From contig MPMM01000004.1 of assembly GCA_002238505.1 (NCBI GenBank), positions 124,001 to 188,000 on the forward strand: a DNA stretch of 64,000 nucleotides, read 5' to 3'. This DNA is from SAR202 cluster bacterium bin22 (GTDB lineage: Bacteria; Chloroflexota; Dehalococcoidia; Lucifugimonadales; UBA3495). Positions within the stretch are counted from its first letter, which is position 1. Every line of letters begins with the position of its first letter. This document shows positions 7,339 through 58,600 of this stretch, one piece after another. The notes beneath the pieces are model-generated. The model was not told the origin of the DNA and did no database searches. It worked only from the letters and a program-made list of their open reading frames with translations. The position numbers were made by a program, and so were the translations under genes.

Positions 7339-9018
7339 ATGGCCCGAGTCACCGGAAGTCACCTGATTGCCAAGGCCCTGAAACTGGAGGGCGTTTACAA
7401 CATCTTCACCCTGGCGGGCGACCACGTGCTGCCGGTGCTGGACGTCATGGCCGACGACGATTTTCGCTTCATCGACACCCGCCACGAACAGGCGGCTGTG
7501 CACATGGCCGATGCCTATGGCCGCATCACCGGCCAGCTTGGCGTCTGCATGTACACCACCCCCGGCTTTGCCAACGCCATTCCCGGCCTGACCAACGCCA
7601 TGCACAGCGAGAGTCCCCTGCTGTCCATCGCCGGTTCCGCCGACTTGTCCGAGCTGGGTCGCGGCGCCATGCAGGAAATCGACCAGGTGGGCATGGCGGC
7701 GGCTACTACCAAGGAATCCCTGATGATTTACGACGCCCGCCGCATTCCCGACACCATCGCCCGGGCCGTGCGGCTGGCCTTCAGCGGCCGCCGGGGTCCC
7801 GTTCACCTGACCATCCCCACCGACGTGCAGGAACAGGAACTGGACGAGGACGAGGTAGTCTTCTTCAATCCCGACGAATACCGCGCCAGCGAAGCCATCC
7901 TCGGACCTCAGGCCCAGATTGAACAGGCCATCGCCCTCCTGCGCCAGGCCCAGCGTCCCTTCGTCATTGCCGGCGAAGCCGCCGGTTACACCCAGGACGG
8001 ACGCGCCCTCCAGGAGTTTGCCGAAGCCCTCCGTGTCCCTGTACTCACCGAGGGCCAGGCCCGGGGTCTGGTTCCCGACGACCACCCCTACGGATTCGGC
8101 TTCTTCGAGCGTGGCCTCAACCGCGCCGCCACCATGCTTCGCAATGCCGACGTGGTGGTGCTCCTTGGCCGCAAGCAGGACTACACCATCGGCTTCTGCC
8201 GCCCCCCCAACGTGGCCGCCGACGCCAAAATCATCCAGATTGACCCTTCGCCCGCCGAAATTGGCCGCAACCGGGGCGTCTCCGTCGGCATCGTCGGCGA
8301 CGTGACCAGCGTGGTCCAGCAGCTTACCCAGGAAGCCTCCAAACACACCTGGCAGGACCTTCCCTGGCTTGAGGAACTGCGGGCTTCCCGCGCCGCCCAG
8401 GCCGAGTGGGCCGAGGGCCTCGCCGTGTCCGAAACCCCCATGCACGCCATGTTTGTCCACAAGACCCTGGAGTCCATGCTGCGGCCCGACGACTTCCTGT
8501 CCTTCGACGGCGGCGACTACTGCCACTTCGGGCGCGCCCTGCTGCCCGCCCAGATGCCCAAGAAATGGTCCTACGTCTCCAGCCTGGGAATGCTGGGTTC
8601 GTCCCTGCCCTCCGCCCTGGCCGCCCAGGTGGCCTACCCAGACTCCCGAGTCATCAACCTCACTGGCGACGGCGCCTTCGGGTTCAATGGCATGGAGTTC
8701 GACACCGCGGTGCGTCACGGCCTGAACGTGGTAACCGTCCTGGGCAACGACTCGGCCTGGGGCATCGACCGCCAGATCCAGCTGGGCCTGTACGGCCGTC
8801 CCGTCGCCACCGACCTGCTCCAGACTCGCTACGACCTGGTAGTCCAGGGCCTGGGCGGCCACGGCGAATTCGTCGAACGCCCTGAAGACCTCAAGCCCGC
8901 CCTCGAACGTGCCTTCGCCGCCAACAAGCCCGCCCTGGTAAACGTGGTAGTGGAAAGGGCCATAAGCCCCCGCGCCGAAGCAGCCATAGCCCGCCGCCAG
9001 GCCGTAACAGGCCAGTAG
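7339..9018 (+). CDS. Thiamine-diphosphate-dependent enzyme, acetolactate-synthase-like
   Basis: A 559-residue enzyme with the three-domain layout of the acetolactate synthase/oxalyl-CoA decarboxylase/benzoylformate decarboxylase superfamily. The activating glutamate is E50 (DTRHEQAAVHMADAYGR). The ThDP-Mg motif starts LTGDGAFGFNGMEFD near residue 442 and closes with VLGNDSAWG. The central domain has the usual Rossmann-like cofactor fold (PFVIAGEAAGY). Its specific substrate is not evident; true acetolactate synthases normally have an ilvH neighbour, absent here, so a catabolic 2-oxoacid enzyme is more likely. The ATG at 7339 follows GGAGGAAAC. Confidence 0.85.
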   Translation: MARVTGSHLIAKALKLEGVYNIFTLAGDHVLPVLDVMADDDFRFIDTRHEQAAVHMADAYGRITGQLGVCMYTTPGFANAIPGLTNAMHSESPLLSIAGSADLSELGRGAMQEIDQVGMAAATTKESLMIYDARRIPDTIARAVRLAFSGRRGPVHLTIPTDVQEQELDEDEVVFFNPDEYRASEAILGPQAQIEQAIALLRQAQRPFVIAGEAAGYTQDGRALQEFAEALRVPVLTEGQARGLVPDDHPYGFGFFERGLNRAATMLRNADVVVLLGRKQDYTIGFCRPPNVAADAKIIQIDPSPAEIGRNRGVSVGIVGDVTSVVQQLTQEASKHTWQDLPWLEELRASRAAQAEWAEGLAVSETPMHAMFVHKTLESMLRPDDFLSFDGGDYCHFGRALLPAQMPKKWSYVSSLGMLGSSLPSALAAQVAYPDSRVINLTGDGAFGFNGMEFDTAVRHGLNVVTVLGNDSAWGIDRQIQLGLYGRPVATDLLQTRYDLVVQGLGGHGEFVERPEDLKPALERAFAANKPALVNVVVERAISPRAEAAIARRQAVTGQ

Positions 9019-9024
9019 TAATCG

Positions 9025-9165
9025 TAAAGTCCCTTCCCCCTTCAAGGGGGAAGGTTAGAGCCTGTCCTGAGCCTGCCGAAGGAATTGGGGTGACCCCCGC
9101 CAACCAGCAAACCAACCCAAAGTCCCTTCCCCTTGAAGGGGGAAGGCCAGGATGGGGGTGAAAGC
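9025..9165. repeat. Palindromic repeat family A, two copies
   Basis: Imperfect palindromes centred on CCCCTTCAAGGGG (9031-9054) and CCCCTTGAAGGGG (9124-9146). The first copy carries the extra segment AGAGCCTGTCCTGAGCCTGC between the palindrome and the GGGGTGA tail. The second runs directly into the reading frame of the DUF559 gene. Confidence 0.9.
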
Positions 9166-9567
9166 ACGCAATCCAAAGACATAACAGCCAGGGCACGCCA
9201 TCTGAGAAAGAATCCAACAGACTCAGAAAGAGCCTTGTGGAATATCCTCCGGAATCGACAGATATTTGGGCTCCGATTTCGCAGGCAGGTCCCATTGGGA
9301 CCCTTCATAGTAGACTTCGCATGCCTCGAAGCCCGACTCATAATAGAAGTCGATGGTGGCCAGCATTTTGAAAACAAACACTACGACGAATGTCGCACAG
9401 CTTGGCTGAATTCTGTTGGCTTTAGAGTGTTGAGGTTTTGGAATAATCAGGTCTTGAACGAGATAGATTCCGTTTGGCAGGAAATTCAGGTTGCTGTCGG
9501 GGAATTGTCGCCAACACACAGTTGTCCCCCTCCCAAAGTCCCTTCCCCCTCGAAGGGGGAAGGTTAG
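9133..9567 (+). CDS. DUF559 (Vsr-like) endonuclease embedded in palindromic repeats
   Basis: A 144-codon frame encoding a DUF559 domain, a PD-(D/E)XK nuclease related to very-short-patch-repair enzymes. Conserved features: RNPTDSERALW, FRRQVPLGPFIVDF (D61), IIEVDGGQH (E72, D74) and VLRFWNNQVL. Both ends are made of flanking repeat DNA: the only in-frame start candidate is TTG 9133 inside one palindrome, and the last 11 codons plus the stop (KVPSPSKGEG, TAG) come from the next one. There is no ATG or GTG before the conserved region and no clear ribosome site, so the true start is uncertain. Function beyond nuclease activity is unknown. Confidence 0.8.
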   Translation: MKGEGQDGGESTQSKDITARARHLRKNPTDSERALWNILRNRQIFGLRFRRQVPLGPFIVDFACLEARLIIEVDGGQHFENKHYDECRTAWLNSVGFRVLRFWNNQVLNEIDSVWQEIQVAVGELSPTHSCPPPKVPSPSKGEG

Positions 9568-9806
9568 GATGGGGGTGATCCCCGCCAAACCAGCAAACCA
9601 ACTAAAGATCCCTTCCCCCTCGAAGGGGGAAGGTTAGGACGGGGGTGAACCCCCCAACCAACAAACCAACTAAAGATCCCTTCCCCCTCGAAGGGGGAAG
9701 GCTAGGATGGGGGTGAACCCTCCCAACCAGCAAACCAACCCAAAGTCCCTTCCCCCTCGAAGGGGGAAGGTTAGGATGGGGGTGAACCCCCGCCAACAAA
9801 TGTCTT
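9535..9806. repeat. Tandem array of four family A repeats, about 69-bp period
   Basis: Four head-to-tail units begin near 9535, 9604, 9672 and 9742. Each has the palindrome CCCCCTCGAAGGGGG, then GTTAGGATGGGGGTGA, then an AACCAGCAAACCAAC tail. Units are 68-70 bp and differ at few positions. With the two copies at 9025-9165 they bracket the DUF559 gene. Confidence 0.92.
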
Positions 9807-9840: not shown

Positions 9841-11556
9841 ATGCCCCAATCACCCCACGGCATAAGCTACGACTCCTACCGCCCCGTCGTCATGGGGCGG
9901 AATGGTATGGTCTGCTCCGGGCACCCCCTGGCCTCCCAGTCCGGCATTGCCATGCTGCAGAGGGGCGGCAACTTTGCGGACGCCGCCCTGGCCACCGCGG
10001 CGGCCCTTAACGTGGTGGAACCCCTCATGTCCGGAGTAGGCGGTGACGGCTTCATCATGGTGTACCGCAAGGACACCGACCGCCTCGAAGTCTCCAACGG
10101 CACCGGCGCCGCGCCCTATGCGGCCACCCGCGACCGCTACCTGCCCGACGGCATCCCCATGAAGGGCATCATGTCCGTGTCCGTGCCGGGACTGGTCAAT
10201 AGCTGGCTGGACGTCCATGAAAAGCACGGTCTCTTGTCCCTGGCCGAATGCTTCGCCCCGGCCATTGACCTGGCCGCCAACGGCTTCCCGGTGACCCACG
10301 TCCTTTCCCGGGCCATCGCCTCCGACCCACTGCTGTGCCAGTTCCCCACCTCCCAGGCCGTCTTCGCCCCCGGCGGTCAGCCCCTGCAGCCCGGCCAGAT
10401 TTGCCACCAGCAAAACCTGGCCCGCACCTTTCAGGCCATCGTGGACGGCGGCCGCGAGGCCTTCTACCAGGGTGGAATCGCCCGCGCCATCGTCAAGTTC
10501 AGCGAGGAGCAGGGCGGCATTCTGTCCCTGAAGGACCTTGCCGACTGCCGCGCCCGCTGGCAGGAAGCCATTTCCACCACCTACCACGGCCACACCGTTT
10601 ACGAGGCCCCGCCCAACTCCAGCGGCCACGTCCTACTCCAGGAACTCAACCTGGTCGAGGAGTTCGACTTGCGGTCCATGGGCTGCAACACCGCCGAAAG
10701 CATCCACCTGATGGTCGAGGCCAAGAAGCTGGCCTTCATCGACCGCGAGGCTTTCGTCGCCGACCCCGACTACATCGACGTCCCCGTCGAGGGCCTCCTC
10801 TCCAAGGACTACGCCCGCGACCGCGCCAGGCTCATCGACCCCGAGCGCGCCGCCTATGACGCCACGCCCGGCAATCCCTGGGCCTACCAGGCTGCCCAGC
10901 CCACTGGCCGTCCCGCCAAAGTGGGAGCCGGCCAGGAACAGGAAGACACCACCTGCTTCGTGGTGGTGGACGGCCAGGGCAACGCCATCTGCCAGTTGCA
11001 AAGCATCCAAAGCGCCTGGGGTTCCAGCCTCATCGCCGGCGACACGGGAATCCTGCTTAACAACCGCATGACCTACTGGCACCTGGAAGAAAATCACGTG
11101 GACTGCCTCGAGCCGGGCAAGCGGGTCCGCCACACCATGAACCCGGTGATGGTCTTCCGCAACTCCCAAGCCTCGGGCAACGGCGCGGGACGGCAACTGT
11201 CCCTGGTCCTTGGCACTCCCGGCGCCGACACCCAGGTCCAGACCAACCTCCAGGTCATCAGTCACGTCCTGGACTTCGGGATGACCGTGGCCGAGGCGGT
11301 GGAGGCTCCCCGCTGGCGCAACACCCAGAACCCCACCGAGTCTTACGTCCCCCACACCTGCCCCGACGAACTGCTGGTCGAGTCCCGCTACTCCGAAGAA
11401 ACACTCGACGGCCTGCGCCAGCGCGGCCACGTCCTCAACGTCCTGGGCGGCTGGGAAGCCACCGGCAGCGAGATGATGATCCAGGTGGACCCCGAAAACA
11501 ACGCCCTCCACGGTGGCGCCGACCCCCGCCGCGACGGCTACGCGGTGGGCTACTAA
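9841..11556 (+). CDS. Gamma-glutamyltransferase family hydrolase
   Basis: A 571-residue Ntn-hydrolase of the gamma-glutamyltranspeptidase family, which cleaves or transfers gamma-glutamyl groups and self-cleaves to expose an N-terminal threonine. The large-subunit part shows SGHPLASQSGIAMLQRGGN, GVGGDGFIMVY and SVSVPGLVNSW. The autoprocessing site is the threonine pair in EDTTCFVVVDGQGN (about residue 369). The small subunit has MNPVMVFRN and a divergent C-terminus. No signal peptide is visible, unlike periplasmic GGTs, so a cytosolic acylase-like role is possible. The ATG at 9841 follows AAGGAGGCCCTCAAC. Confidence 0.9.
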   Translation: MPQSPHGISYDSYRPVVMGRNGMVCSGHPLASQSGIAMLQRGGNFADAALATAAALNVVEPLMSGVGGDGFIMVYRKDTDRLEVSNGTGAAPYAATRDRYLPDGIPMKGIMSVSVPGLVNSWLDVHEKHGLLSLAECFAPAIDLAANGFPVTHVLSRAIASDPLLCQFPTSQAVFAPGGQPLQPGQICHQQNLARTFQAIVDGGREAFYQGGIARAIVKFSEEQGGILSLKDLADCRARWQEAISTTYHGHTVYEAPPNSSGHVLLQELNLVEEFDLRSMGCNTAESIHLMVEAKKLAFIDREAFVADPDYIDVPVEGLLSKDYARDRARLIDPERAAYDATPGNPWAYQAAQPTGRPAKVGAGQEQEDTTCFVVVDGQGNAICQLQSIQSAWGSSLIAGDTGILLNNRMTYWHLEENHVDCLEPGKRVRHTMNPVMVFRNSQASGNGAGRQLSLVLGTPGADTQVQTNLQVISHVLDFGMTVAEAVEAPRWRNTQNPTESYVPHTCPDELLVESRYSEETLDGLRQRGHVLNVLGGWEATGSEMMIQVDPENNALHGGADPRRDGYAVGY

Positions 11557-14023: not shown

Positions 14024-14440
14024 CCCCCAAGCCCCTCCCCCCACAAAGGCACAAGGCCAGGCTGGGGGTGATGCCCTTTCAAAGTCCCTTCCCCCTCGAA
14101 GGGGGAAGGCTAGAGCCTGTCCTGAGCCTGCCGAAGGAATGGGGGTGACTCCCCAGAAAAACCCAGCCTGCCCGGACAGAACCCCCTAACCGTTCGCCCT
14201 GAGCCTGTCGAAGGGCCCCGAAGATGCACAAAGGTTTCAACACTCCCTTCCCCCTCGAAGGGGGAAGGCCAGGCTGAGGGGGATGCCCTTTCAAAGTCCC
14301 TTCCCCCTCGAAGGGGGAAGGTTAGGATGGGGGTGCCCCCCCGCCAACCAGCCCCCCCACCCAAAGCCCCTTCCCCTCGAAGGGGGAAGGCTAGAGCCTG
14401 TCCTGAGCCTCCCGAAGGAATGGGCGTGCCCCCCACCAAC
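14024..14440. repeat. Cluster of family A and family B interspersed repeats
   Basis: Four palindromes at 14086-14109, 14245-14268, 14298-14321 and 14367-14390, plus a decayed one near 14030-14070. A CGTTCGCCCTGAGCCTGTCG element lies at about 14190-14215. No gene is visible in the cluster. Confidence 0.88.
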
Positions 14441-17449: not shown

Positions 17450-17495
17450 AAAAGTCCCTTCCCTCTCGACGGGGGAAGGTTAGGATGGGGGTGAA
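17450..17495. repeat. Single family A palindromic repeat
   Basis: Palindrome at 17456-17479 with the GTTAGGATGGGGGTGA tail, 10 bp after the HEPN-helicase stop codon. Confidence 0.85.
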
Positions 17496-22857: not shown

Positions 22858-22900
22858 AAGTTCCCCCCTCGCCCTATGGGAGAGGGGCCGGGGGTGAGGG
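22858..22900. repeat. Family D palindromic repeat
   Basis: GTTCCCCCCTCGCCC(T)ATGGGAGAGGGG followed by CCGGGGGTGAGGGCCC. Two more copies lie at 23862-23905 and 23984-24025, and an inverted copy lies at 44494-44530 inside the ATP synthase operon. Confidence 0.85.
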
Positions 22901-23746: not shown

Positions 23747-23756
23747 AAACCCCCCA

Positions 23757-24027
23757 ACCCAAAGTCCCTTCCCCCTCGAAGGGGGAAGGTTAGAGCCTGT
23801 CCTGATCCTGCCGAAGGAATGGGGGTGACCCCCCCACCCACAAACCAACATCAATACCGAAGTTCCCCCCTCGCCCACTGGGAGAGGGGCCGGGGGTGAG
23901 GGCCCGCACCAGGAAGCGCGCCCGGTCCCGAGGGCCAACCCCCAATCAAAAACGAGCGCAAATGACCCTGAAAACCAAAATGCTCCCCTCCCCCTATGGG
24001 AAAGGGGCCGGGGGTGAGGGCCCCCAA
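23757..24027. repeat. Family A and family D repeats between two unknown genes
   Basis: One family A palindrome with the CCTGTCCTGATCCTGCCG insert (23766-23789), then family D copies at 23862-23905 and 23984-24025. The last ends 10 bp before the start codon of the next gene and includes part of its leader. Confidence 0.85.
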
Positions 24028-44493: not shown

Positions 44494-44576
44494 CCCTCAC
44501 CCCCGTCCCCTCTCCCCCAGGGAGAGGAGTGATTTGAGGACTCCCTCTCCAGGGGGAGAGGAGAAGAAGAATAGAC
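44494..44576. repeat. Inverted family D repeat inside the ATP synthase operon
   Basis: CCCTCACCCCCGTCCCCTCT begins 1 bp after the atpA stop. A second half, CCCTCTCCAGGGGGAGAGG, forms a hairpin just upstream of atpG. This is the reverse complement of the element at 22858, 23862 and 23984. GAGAGGAG near 44555 and GAAGAAGAA provide the atpG ribosome-binding region. Confidence 0.85.
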
Positions 44577-58565: not shown

Positions 58566-58600
58566 CAACAATCCTTCCCCCTTGACGGGGGAAGGTTGGC
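58566..58600. repeat. Single family A palindromic repeat
   Basis: CCTTCCCCCTTGACGGGGGAAGG at 58573-58595 is slightly degenerate; the core is CCCCCTTGACGGGGG. Confidence 0.8.

Follow-up and report, generated by a model that had tools for sequence, protein, structure and literature searches.

The DUF559 nuclease gene analysed here, from the genome of the SAR202 cluster bacterium bin22, a Chloroflexota member, lies amid six short, tailed hairpins that are assignable to a published class of intrastrand-triplex motifs (TMs), and the same pairing of nuclease gene and enclosing TMs is seen across many phyla. We consider it probable, with a likelihood of about 0.6, that the locus represents the autonomous form of a selfish element with two parts, the nuclease and the TMs that enclose it, in which the nuclease acts at TMs and recombination copies them. 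Dispersed TM copies, and TM doublets without the gene, would then be non-autonomous relatives of the element.

The nuclease gene and its surrounding repeats

The window, i.e. the whole stretch of DNA analysed, comprises 64,000 nucleotides. The inserted stretch under study is bounded by the stop codon of a TPP-enzyme gene at 9018 and by the start of a gamma-glutamyltranspeptidase (GGT) gene at 9841. Its features, and the other TM sites discussed, are as follows (window positions; bit scores are those of the covariance model R2):

9019 to 9800, no strand: whole inserted stretch (TM repeats, DUF559 gene and TM array), between the TPP-enzyme gene and the GGT gene
9032 to 9093, + strand: TM copy 1; hairpin 9032-9054, spacer TTAG, tail split by a foreign 25-nt repeat at 9059-9083, then ATTGGGGTGA
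9124 to 9158, + strand: TM copy 2; tail faces the gene, TTG 9133 in the loop; R2 36.1 bits
9133 to 9567, + strand: DUF559 nuclease ORF, 144 aa; PF04480 E 1.3e-42; start codon (TTG) uncertain
9178 to 9495, + strand: DUF559 domain with catalytic set D61, E72, D74, H78, D85 (Pfam profile and alignment)
9541 to 9575, + strand: TM copy 3; contains the C-terminal codons and stop; R2 45.6 bits
9611 to 9645, + strand: TM copy 4; R2 39.4 bits
9679 to 9713, + strand: TM copy 5; R2 45.4 bits
9748 to 9782, + strand: TM copy 6; R2 45.6 bits
14028 to 14440, no strand: TM array without nuclease; hairpins at 14087, 14246, 14299 and 14369
17457 to 17491, + strand: solitary TM
22866 to 22900, + strand: solitary TM
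23751 to 24020, no strand: nuclease-free TM cluster
44494 to 44528, - strand: solitary TM
58573 to 58599, + strand: TM hairpin

The preliminary description of this DNA placed a DUF559 nuclease (D61, E72, D74) between two palindromes on the left and four on the right, and all six hairpins were located, at 9032-9054 and 9124-9146 on the left, and at 9541-9563, 9611-9633, 9679-9701 and 9748-9770 on the right. The presence of six such elements at one gene is not attributable to chance, since random 410-nt segments of like DNA hold one 3.5% of the time. The claim that the start and final codons of the gene are themselves palindrome sequence is correct here, in that the sole in-frame ATG, GTG or TTG of the ORF is TTG 9133, inside the loop of the second left hairpin, and in that hairpin sequence encodes the final ten codons and stop of the protein (KVPSPSKGEG, then stop), but it is not general. 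A candidate start is within the hairpin zone in 33/101 homologues and a stop in 25/101, a minority pattern; the hairpins thus sometimes supply these codons, though not as a rule, and these counts rule out a role for the repeat as only a DUF559 promoter or terminator.

The TMs of the window copy are direct repeats, an exception to the usual tail-in layout of DUF559 loci. The uncertain TTG start, together with the lack of an intact tail-in repeat on the right, suggests that the window gene may be decaying. The window genome has one full DUF559 domain only, and a Vsr-type linked cytosine methyltransferase is absent among the immediate neighbours of the gene (the TPP enzyme and gamma-glutamyltranspeptidase).

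Scattered copies of the palindrome, of which at least 15 had been counted in the window, occupy approximately 18 distinct sites there, and the hairpin has 117 forward-strand matches (up to 3 mismatches) in the 4.39-Mb genome, the reversed control giving 0. The 25-nt repeat (AGCCTGTCCTGAGCCTGCCGAAGGA) that splits the tail of TM copy 1 is found nested at an identical point within several TM tails in the window (9059-9083, approximately 14114-14138 and approximately 14395-14419), so that the spacer of one repeat family appears to be in use by a second family; similar inserts are also present in loci L007, L008 and L012.

The repeat as a triplex motif

The element at DUF559 flanks consists of a C-rich arm, a 3-6-nt loop, a G-rich arm, a 3-nt spacer (e.g. 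TTA, CTA or CCG) and a G-rich tail. The conserved tail of the window repeat, TTAGGATGGGGG, which the preliminary description had not noted, identifies the element as a triplex motif and not as a palindrome alone; the architecture of C-rich arm, G-rich arm, 3-nt spacer and G-rich third strand is seen in CCTTCCCCCTCGAAGGGGGAAGG-TTA-GGATGGGGG. Judged by its sequence, the window repeat belongs to the published TM_ECO/PIT/BoxC intrastrand-triplex class, and is predicted to be triplex-capable. The consensus for the class, CCCTCNCCCN3-6GGGNGAGGGN3GGGNGAGGG, was reported from >260 genomes (Holder et al. 2015, PMC4666352). The TM_ECO triplex forms in vitro, as observed by CD and NMR (PMC4666352), a stable TM triplex was not observed in vivo by DMS footprinting (Holder et al. 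2015, PMC4666352), and no mobility gene was found near the TM by its describers, for whom it was a repeat of unexplained origin (PMC4666352). The published repeat and that described here share the order of parts given above, with a loop of 3-6 nt, a spacer of 3 nt (TTA/CCG) and a G-rich third strand. Many DUF559 flanks have elements of the CCCTCTCCC type, which is that of the published consensus, and inverted pairs are present in both sets. By contrast with the published repeat, that described here is tied to a nuclease gene, and exists in many clade-specific stem variants with co-varying tails.

A purine-motif intrastrand triplex requires a mirror relation with A/T interchange. At DUF559 flanks differences in the stem are matched in the tail, which repeats the G-rich arm in mirror order, mostly with a T in place of one A; the stem-tail variants include GGGGGAAGG-TTA-GGATGGGGG, GGGAGAGGG-CTA-GGGTGAGGG, GGGGGAGGA-TTA-AGGTGGGGG and GGGAGAAGG-TTA-GGATGAGGG. 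Over 288 unique asymmetric elements, mirror scoring gives 5.42, versus 4.93 +/- 0.04 with shuffled tails (maximum of 500: 5.04); the direct-copy score for the same elements is 4.95, versus 4.88 when shuffled.

DUF559 genes between triplex motifs in many phyla

The 124 DUF559 loci gathered came from relatives, from elsewhere in the phylum and from many further phyla. The inverted-repeat score, obtained by comparing the left flank with the reverse complement of the right, has a median of 29 at DUF559 loci, versus null values of 15 when the flanks are taken from different loci and 14 around pseudo-genes of the same contigs, and a hairpin with tail is found near 108/124 DUF559 genes, versus 3.5% of distant 410-nt segments. 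It had been proposed that DUF559 genes elsewhere should adjoin the repeat of their own genome, and this is the case: a TM lies within 350 nt of stand-alone DUF559 genes at 23/26 loci in the Chloroflexota sample, 12/16 in relatives and 57/75 in other phyla, the cross-phylum loci having been chosen by similarity to TM-flanked sequences, so that other DUF559 clades may be without TMs. In the identical test, a TM was within 350 nt of 0/30 GIY-YIG genes of the same genomes and of 0/5 DUF559-like domains in long proteins.

As TMs occur in clusters, a single array beside one gene could be a coincidence, i.e. the chance insertion of a single gene in a single repeat array; such an origin is scarcely credible for an arrangement that recurs at >100 loci in many phyla, versus 0-3.5% in controls. 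Adjacency by chance was rejected on the basis of four controls, namely pseudo-gene, cross-locus, GIY-YIG and multidomain.

The flanking TMs are also oriented, with the tail of the nearest TM facing the DUF559 gene in 139/178 cases (p 2e-14), and with a tail-in/tail-in arrangement at 49/70 loci that have TMs on both sides. Furthermore, protein identity is correlated with hairpin similarity (Mantel r 0.21, p <=0.0005, 57 loci), and where one genome has two DUF559 genes, each gene has hairpins of its own type, like those of its protein clade in other genera. Thus, L005, L006 and L011 have common GGGGGAAGG and GGGGGAGGA arms, and L015 and L021 have common AAAGGGGGG arms (L023 was judged by eye). 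Vertical inheritance contributes in part to this match of clade and repeat.

DUF559 genes with AAATCCCCC-type hairpins adjoin a DnaE2-like, error-prone polymerase-like gene (L006/L023 in G010, L005/L021 in G017, L015 and L018); this neighbourhood is seen in several genera, and two different DUF559 genes can stand <2 kb apart. A relative is present in only 40/72,556 plasmid records and 2/50,697 phage records, counts that rule out plasmid or phage cargo and indicate a mainly chromosomal element.

In E. coli K-12 the DUF559 gene is ycjD (b1289), the product of which was predicted to be a PD-(D/E)XK nuclease (PMC1189080). Its reading frame ends within a TM hairpin (RRSPSP, then stop), and a complete TM, entry 9 in the published list of 23, is located ~170 nt downstream; in a strain with a less decayed locus (L187), three TMs or TM relics follow ycjD. 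Of 5,426 complete genomes, 3,362 have at least 80% of the ycjD-TM stretch. Where it is missing, the eef operon is present between sapF and fabI (PMC12817139), which implies replacement and not a clean empty site; E. coli SMS-3-5, which has other genes (eef) beside fabI, was rejected as a clean empty site (PMC12817139).

Genome-wide co-occurrence

The presence of the repeat tracks that of DUF559, in line with a second proposal of the preliminary description. Among Chloroflexota genomes, which are interrelated, TMs as counted by R2, a model trained partly on DUF559-flank TMs, are present in 45/46 with a strong DUF559 match versus 46/105 without (odds ratio 58, Fisher p 1e-11). At least five TMs are present in 42/46 of the Chloroflexota genomes with DUF559 versus 29/105 of those without, and the median number of TMs, among the matches listed for the Chloroflexota sample, is 31 versus 0. 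In other phyla, 39/39 DUF559-positive genomes carry TMs, with 3 to 152 matches. The occurrence of DUF559 and TMs together over many phyla, including in E. coli K-12, makes DUF559 a strong candidate for the spreader of TM repeats. At least 30 TM matches are present in 22/105 DUF559-negative genomes, stand-alone-type DUF559 fragments being found in only three of these 22.

It could be that RAYT/Y1 transposases mobilize TMs, with DUF559 an incidental passenger, as some TM-rich genomes have Y1 and at least five TMs are present in 36/61 Y1-positive genomes. However, at least five TMs are also present in 35/90 Y1-negative genomes and, among the Y1-negative genomes, in 16/18 with DUF559 versus 19/72 without; the odds ratio of Y1 for TMs is only 2.7, versus 58 for DUF559, and a single marginal match to Y1 (E 3.5e-4) is all that was found in the window genome. 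Y1 is thus a poor predictor of TMs and does not explain the DUF559 effect, making mobilization by Y1 very unlikely.

Occupied, doublet and empty sites

A comparison of empty with occupied sites, which had also been suggested, is possible at a metH site in one Chloroflexota family, where three states are found. In 17 genomes there is a single uninterrupted match, i.e. the empty state; G191 (L181) has a TM doublet only, with two inverted TMs around a short centre; and G056, G084, G193 and G213 (L170, L175-L177) have a doublet-DUF559-doublet arrangement, in frame. The doublet-only state may be what a deletion left behind, and not an independent insertion. In other genomes the metH linker takes unrelated short in-frame inserts (L171, L172, L174, L179).

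At the window site, between the TPP-enzyme and GGT genes, neither DUF559 nor a TM is present in the congeners G001, G002 and G004, nor is either present upstream of the same GGT gene in the congener G003; in two other genera (G009/G013) just 107-111 nt separate the TPP-enzyme and GGT genes. The TM array at 14028-14440 is likewise missing in G002 and G003, which have a gap of ~118 nt there. The absence of the window unit and of this array in relatives implies that the full unit and bare TM arrays are both lineage-specific.

The TPP-enzyme/GGT site in congeners holds other small genes, including a GIY-YIG relic in G002 (L203) and BrnT/BrnA-type-looking pairs in G001 (L206) and G004 (L204); the site is thus a putative hot spot for small mobile genes. 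Elsewhere, L149 (G119) has a TM-DUF559-TM unit, in frame, inside a DNA-methylase-like gene, and in L150 (G067) and L151 (G057) DUF559 is the nuclease domain of an apparent intein in a DNA methyltransferase, the apparent intein bearing in-frame hairpin repeats. Within the apparent inteins DUF559 appears to take the position of a homing endonuclease.

The enzyme, homing and repair

The window protein matches PF04480 with 144.5 bits over residues 16-121 (Pfam gathering score cut-off 20.6); 66 homologues show no variation at D61, E72, D74 or D85, and conservation of at least 90% at H78. An AlphaFold2 model of the protein has a mean pLDDT of 85, and on searching with Foldseek gave target TM-scores of 0.91 for 3HRL, 0.81 for I-Bth0305I and 0.49 for Vsr; a profile search agrees on 3HRL and I-Bth0305I, with 3r3p at HMM E 7e-6. 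The initial assignment as a PD-(D/E)XK enzyme holds with respect to the catalytic residues, which are kept, but from these matches the enzyme is better described as having an EDxHD/Vsr-type homing-endonuclease fold. The invariance of E72, D74 and D85, with the near-invariance of H78, fits the E-x-D...H...D pattern that names the EDxHD class; the class is described in PMC3943268, and the placing of DUF559 in it is our own assignment.

Of the structural neighbours, 3HRL (NGO0050 from Neisseria gonorrhoeae) is a solved DUF559 structure, 44% identical by fold alignment, and I-Bth0305I (PDB 3R3P) shares the catalytic fold and the E-x-D...H...D residues. As with free-standing homing endonucleases, DUF559 is selfishly placed between copies of its presumed target; unlike I-Bth0305I, it is without a long extra DNA-binding region and lies between dispersed repeats, with no intron seen.

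As the main alternative, DUF559 may be a homing parasite, which cuts at pre-existing TMs only in order to insert a copy of its gene between two of them. The TMs would be spread by something else, such as replication slippage or another recombinase, and would serve as abundant homing sites and homology arms. The nearest fold is that of a homing endonuclease, DUF559 acts as the nuclease domain in the apparent inteins of L150 and L151, and DUF559 nearly implies TMs (45/46) while the reverse does not hold (46/105 TM-positive without DUF559), TMs persisting in many DUF559-free genomes. This asymmetry, i.e. that the repeats are common without the nuclease, keeps a homing parasite in consideration and, together with the fold, favours it. 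By contrast, the matching of TM type to DUF559 clade, within one genome too, and the far higher abundance of TMs with DUF559 (median 31 versus 0, among the matches listed) favour an element made of nuclease plus repeats, and no other candidate spreader correlates with TMs, Y1 doing so weakly; overall we regard mere homing as rather unlikely, albeit deserving of serious attention.

Vsr has a related fold, and YcjD and Caulobacter VsrA belong to the DUF559 family. VsrA is required for DNA-damage signalling in a strain without the ScmA cytosine methyltransferase (PMC12907096); this phenotype is genetic evidence that the DUF559 family damages DNA, and its link to cytosine methylation and DNA damage suggests another DUF559 role (PMC12907096). 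DUF559 could be an ordinary Vsr-like repair or restriction nuclease acting at methylation-related mismatches, the TMs being flanking passengers (terminators or replication pause sites) in permissive intergenic DNA, as would be in keeping with the signalling triggered by VsrA when ScmA is missing and with the presence of Vsr among the structural neighbours. However, the mismatch-repair role of VsrA is itself a prediction in its own paper (PMC12907096), TMs do not flank the small GIY-YIG genes of the same genomes (0/30), whole TM-DUF559-TM units are found in frame inside metH and a methyltransferase gene, and the TMs are oriented inward (p 2e-14). Unlike Vsr, the window gene has TM flanks and no methyltransferase beside it. 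An ordinary repair function of this type is improbable.

Relation to REP/RAYT systems and proposed mechanism

The arrangement resembles that of REP/REPIN sequences with RAYTs (REPtrons), in which a small nuclease gene is flanked by inverted, short, tailed hairpins (PMC3733652, PMC8266576, PMC8049555). In both systems gene-free copies and doublets are dispersed in their hundreds, the location is chromosomal, and the hairpin type follows the enzyme lineage. By contrast with RAYTs, DUF559 belongs to the metal-dependent PD-(D/E)XK/EDxHD nucleases and has no tyrosine HUH site, and its repeat is a purine-tailed triplex motif with no GTAG at the hairpin foot, the tail being TTAGGATGGGGG. The DUF559-TM unit thus works like RAYT/REP but is not a member of that group, having no Y1 enzyme and no GTAG tag. 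The original proposal, that nuclease and palindromes form one unit parallel to RAYT/REP, has survived every one of its suggested comparisons that was run. The repeat falls within the known TM class, and the enzyme within DUF559. In the open-access journal literature searched, no report coupling DUF559 or ycjD with TM repeats was found, nor one joining GIY-YIG with REPs.

With respect to mechanism, in the two-part element the DUF559 nuclease most likely recognizes the TM sequence or the folded hairpin/triplex, and would nick or cut at the TM. Recombinational repair or templated copying between TMs would then give rise to TMs at new sites, with or without the nuclease gene, and the same process would expand or contract arrays. 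Action of DUF559 on TMs, the spread of TMs as its consequence and a role for the triplex fold are our inferences.

Small GIY-YIG genes have a different type of neighbour, in that CGTC-type REPs ([CT]GTCATTCC...GGAAT) are present within 350 nt of 7/30 such genes (L226, L234, L236, L238, L244, L245, L247), versus 0/117 DUF559 genes. In a 2013 REP survey the CGTC repeats were without a dedicated transposase (PMC3733652). It is conceivable, though we propose it only tentatively, that there is a general rule by which different families of small nucleases are each paired with a single class of dispersed bacterial palindrome, i.e. HUH/Y1 with GTAG REPs, as is known, DUF559 with triplex motifs and GIY-YIG with CGTC REPs; DUF559 would, in that case, recognize and spread an intrastrand triplex.

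DUF559 is, to our knowledge, a large family without an assigned function, and linking it with the TM gives each a testable role. E. coli K-12 is suited to such tests, in that ycjD ends in a TM, 23 TMs are mapped, and >5,000 complete genomes are available for natural variation. If the proposal is true, DUF559 would be a second enzyme class for nuclease-driven repeat families, which are so far known for RAYTs.
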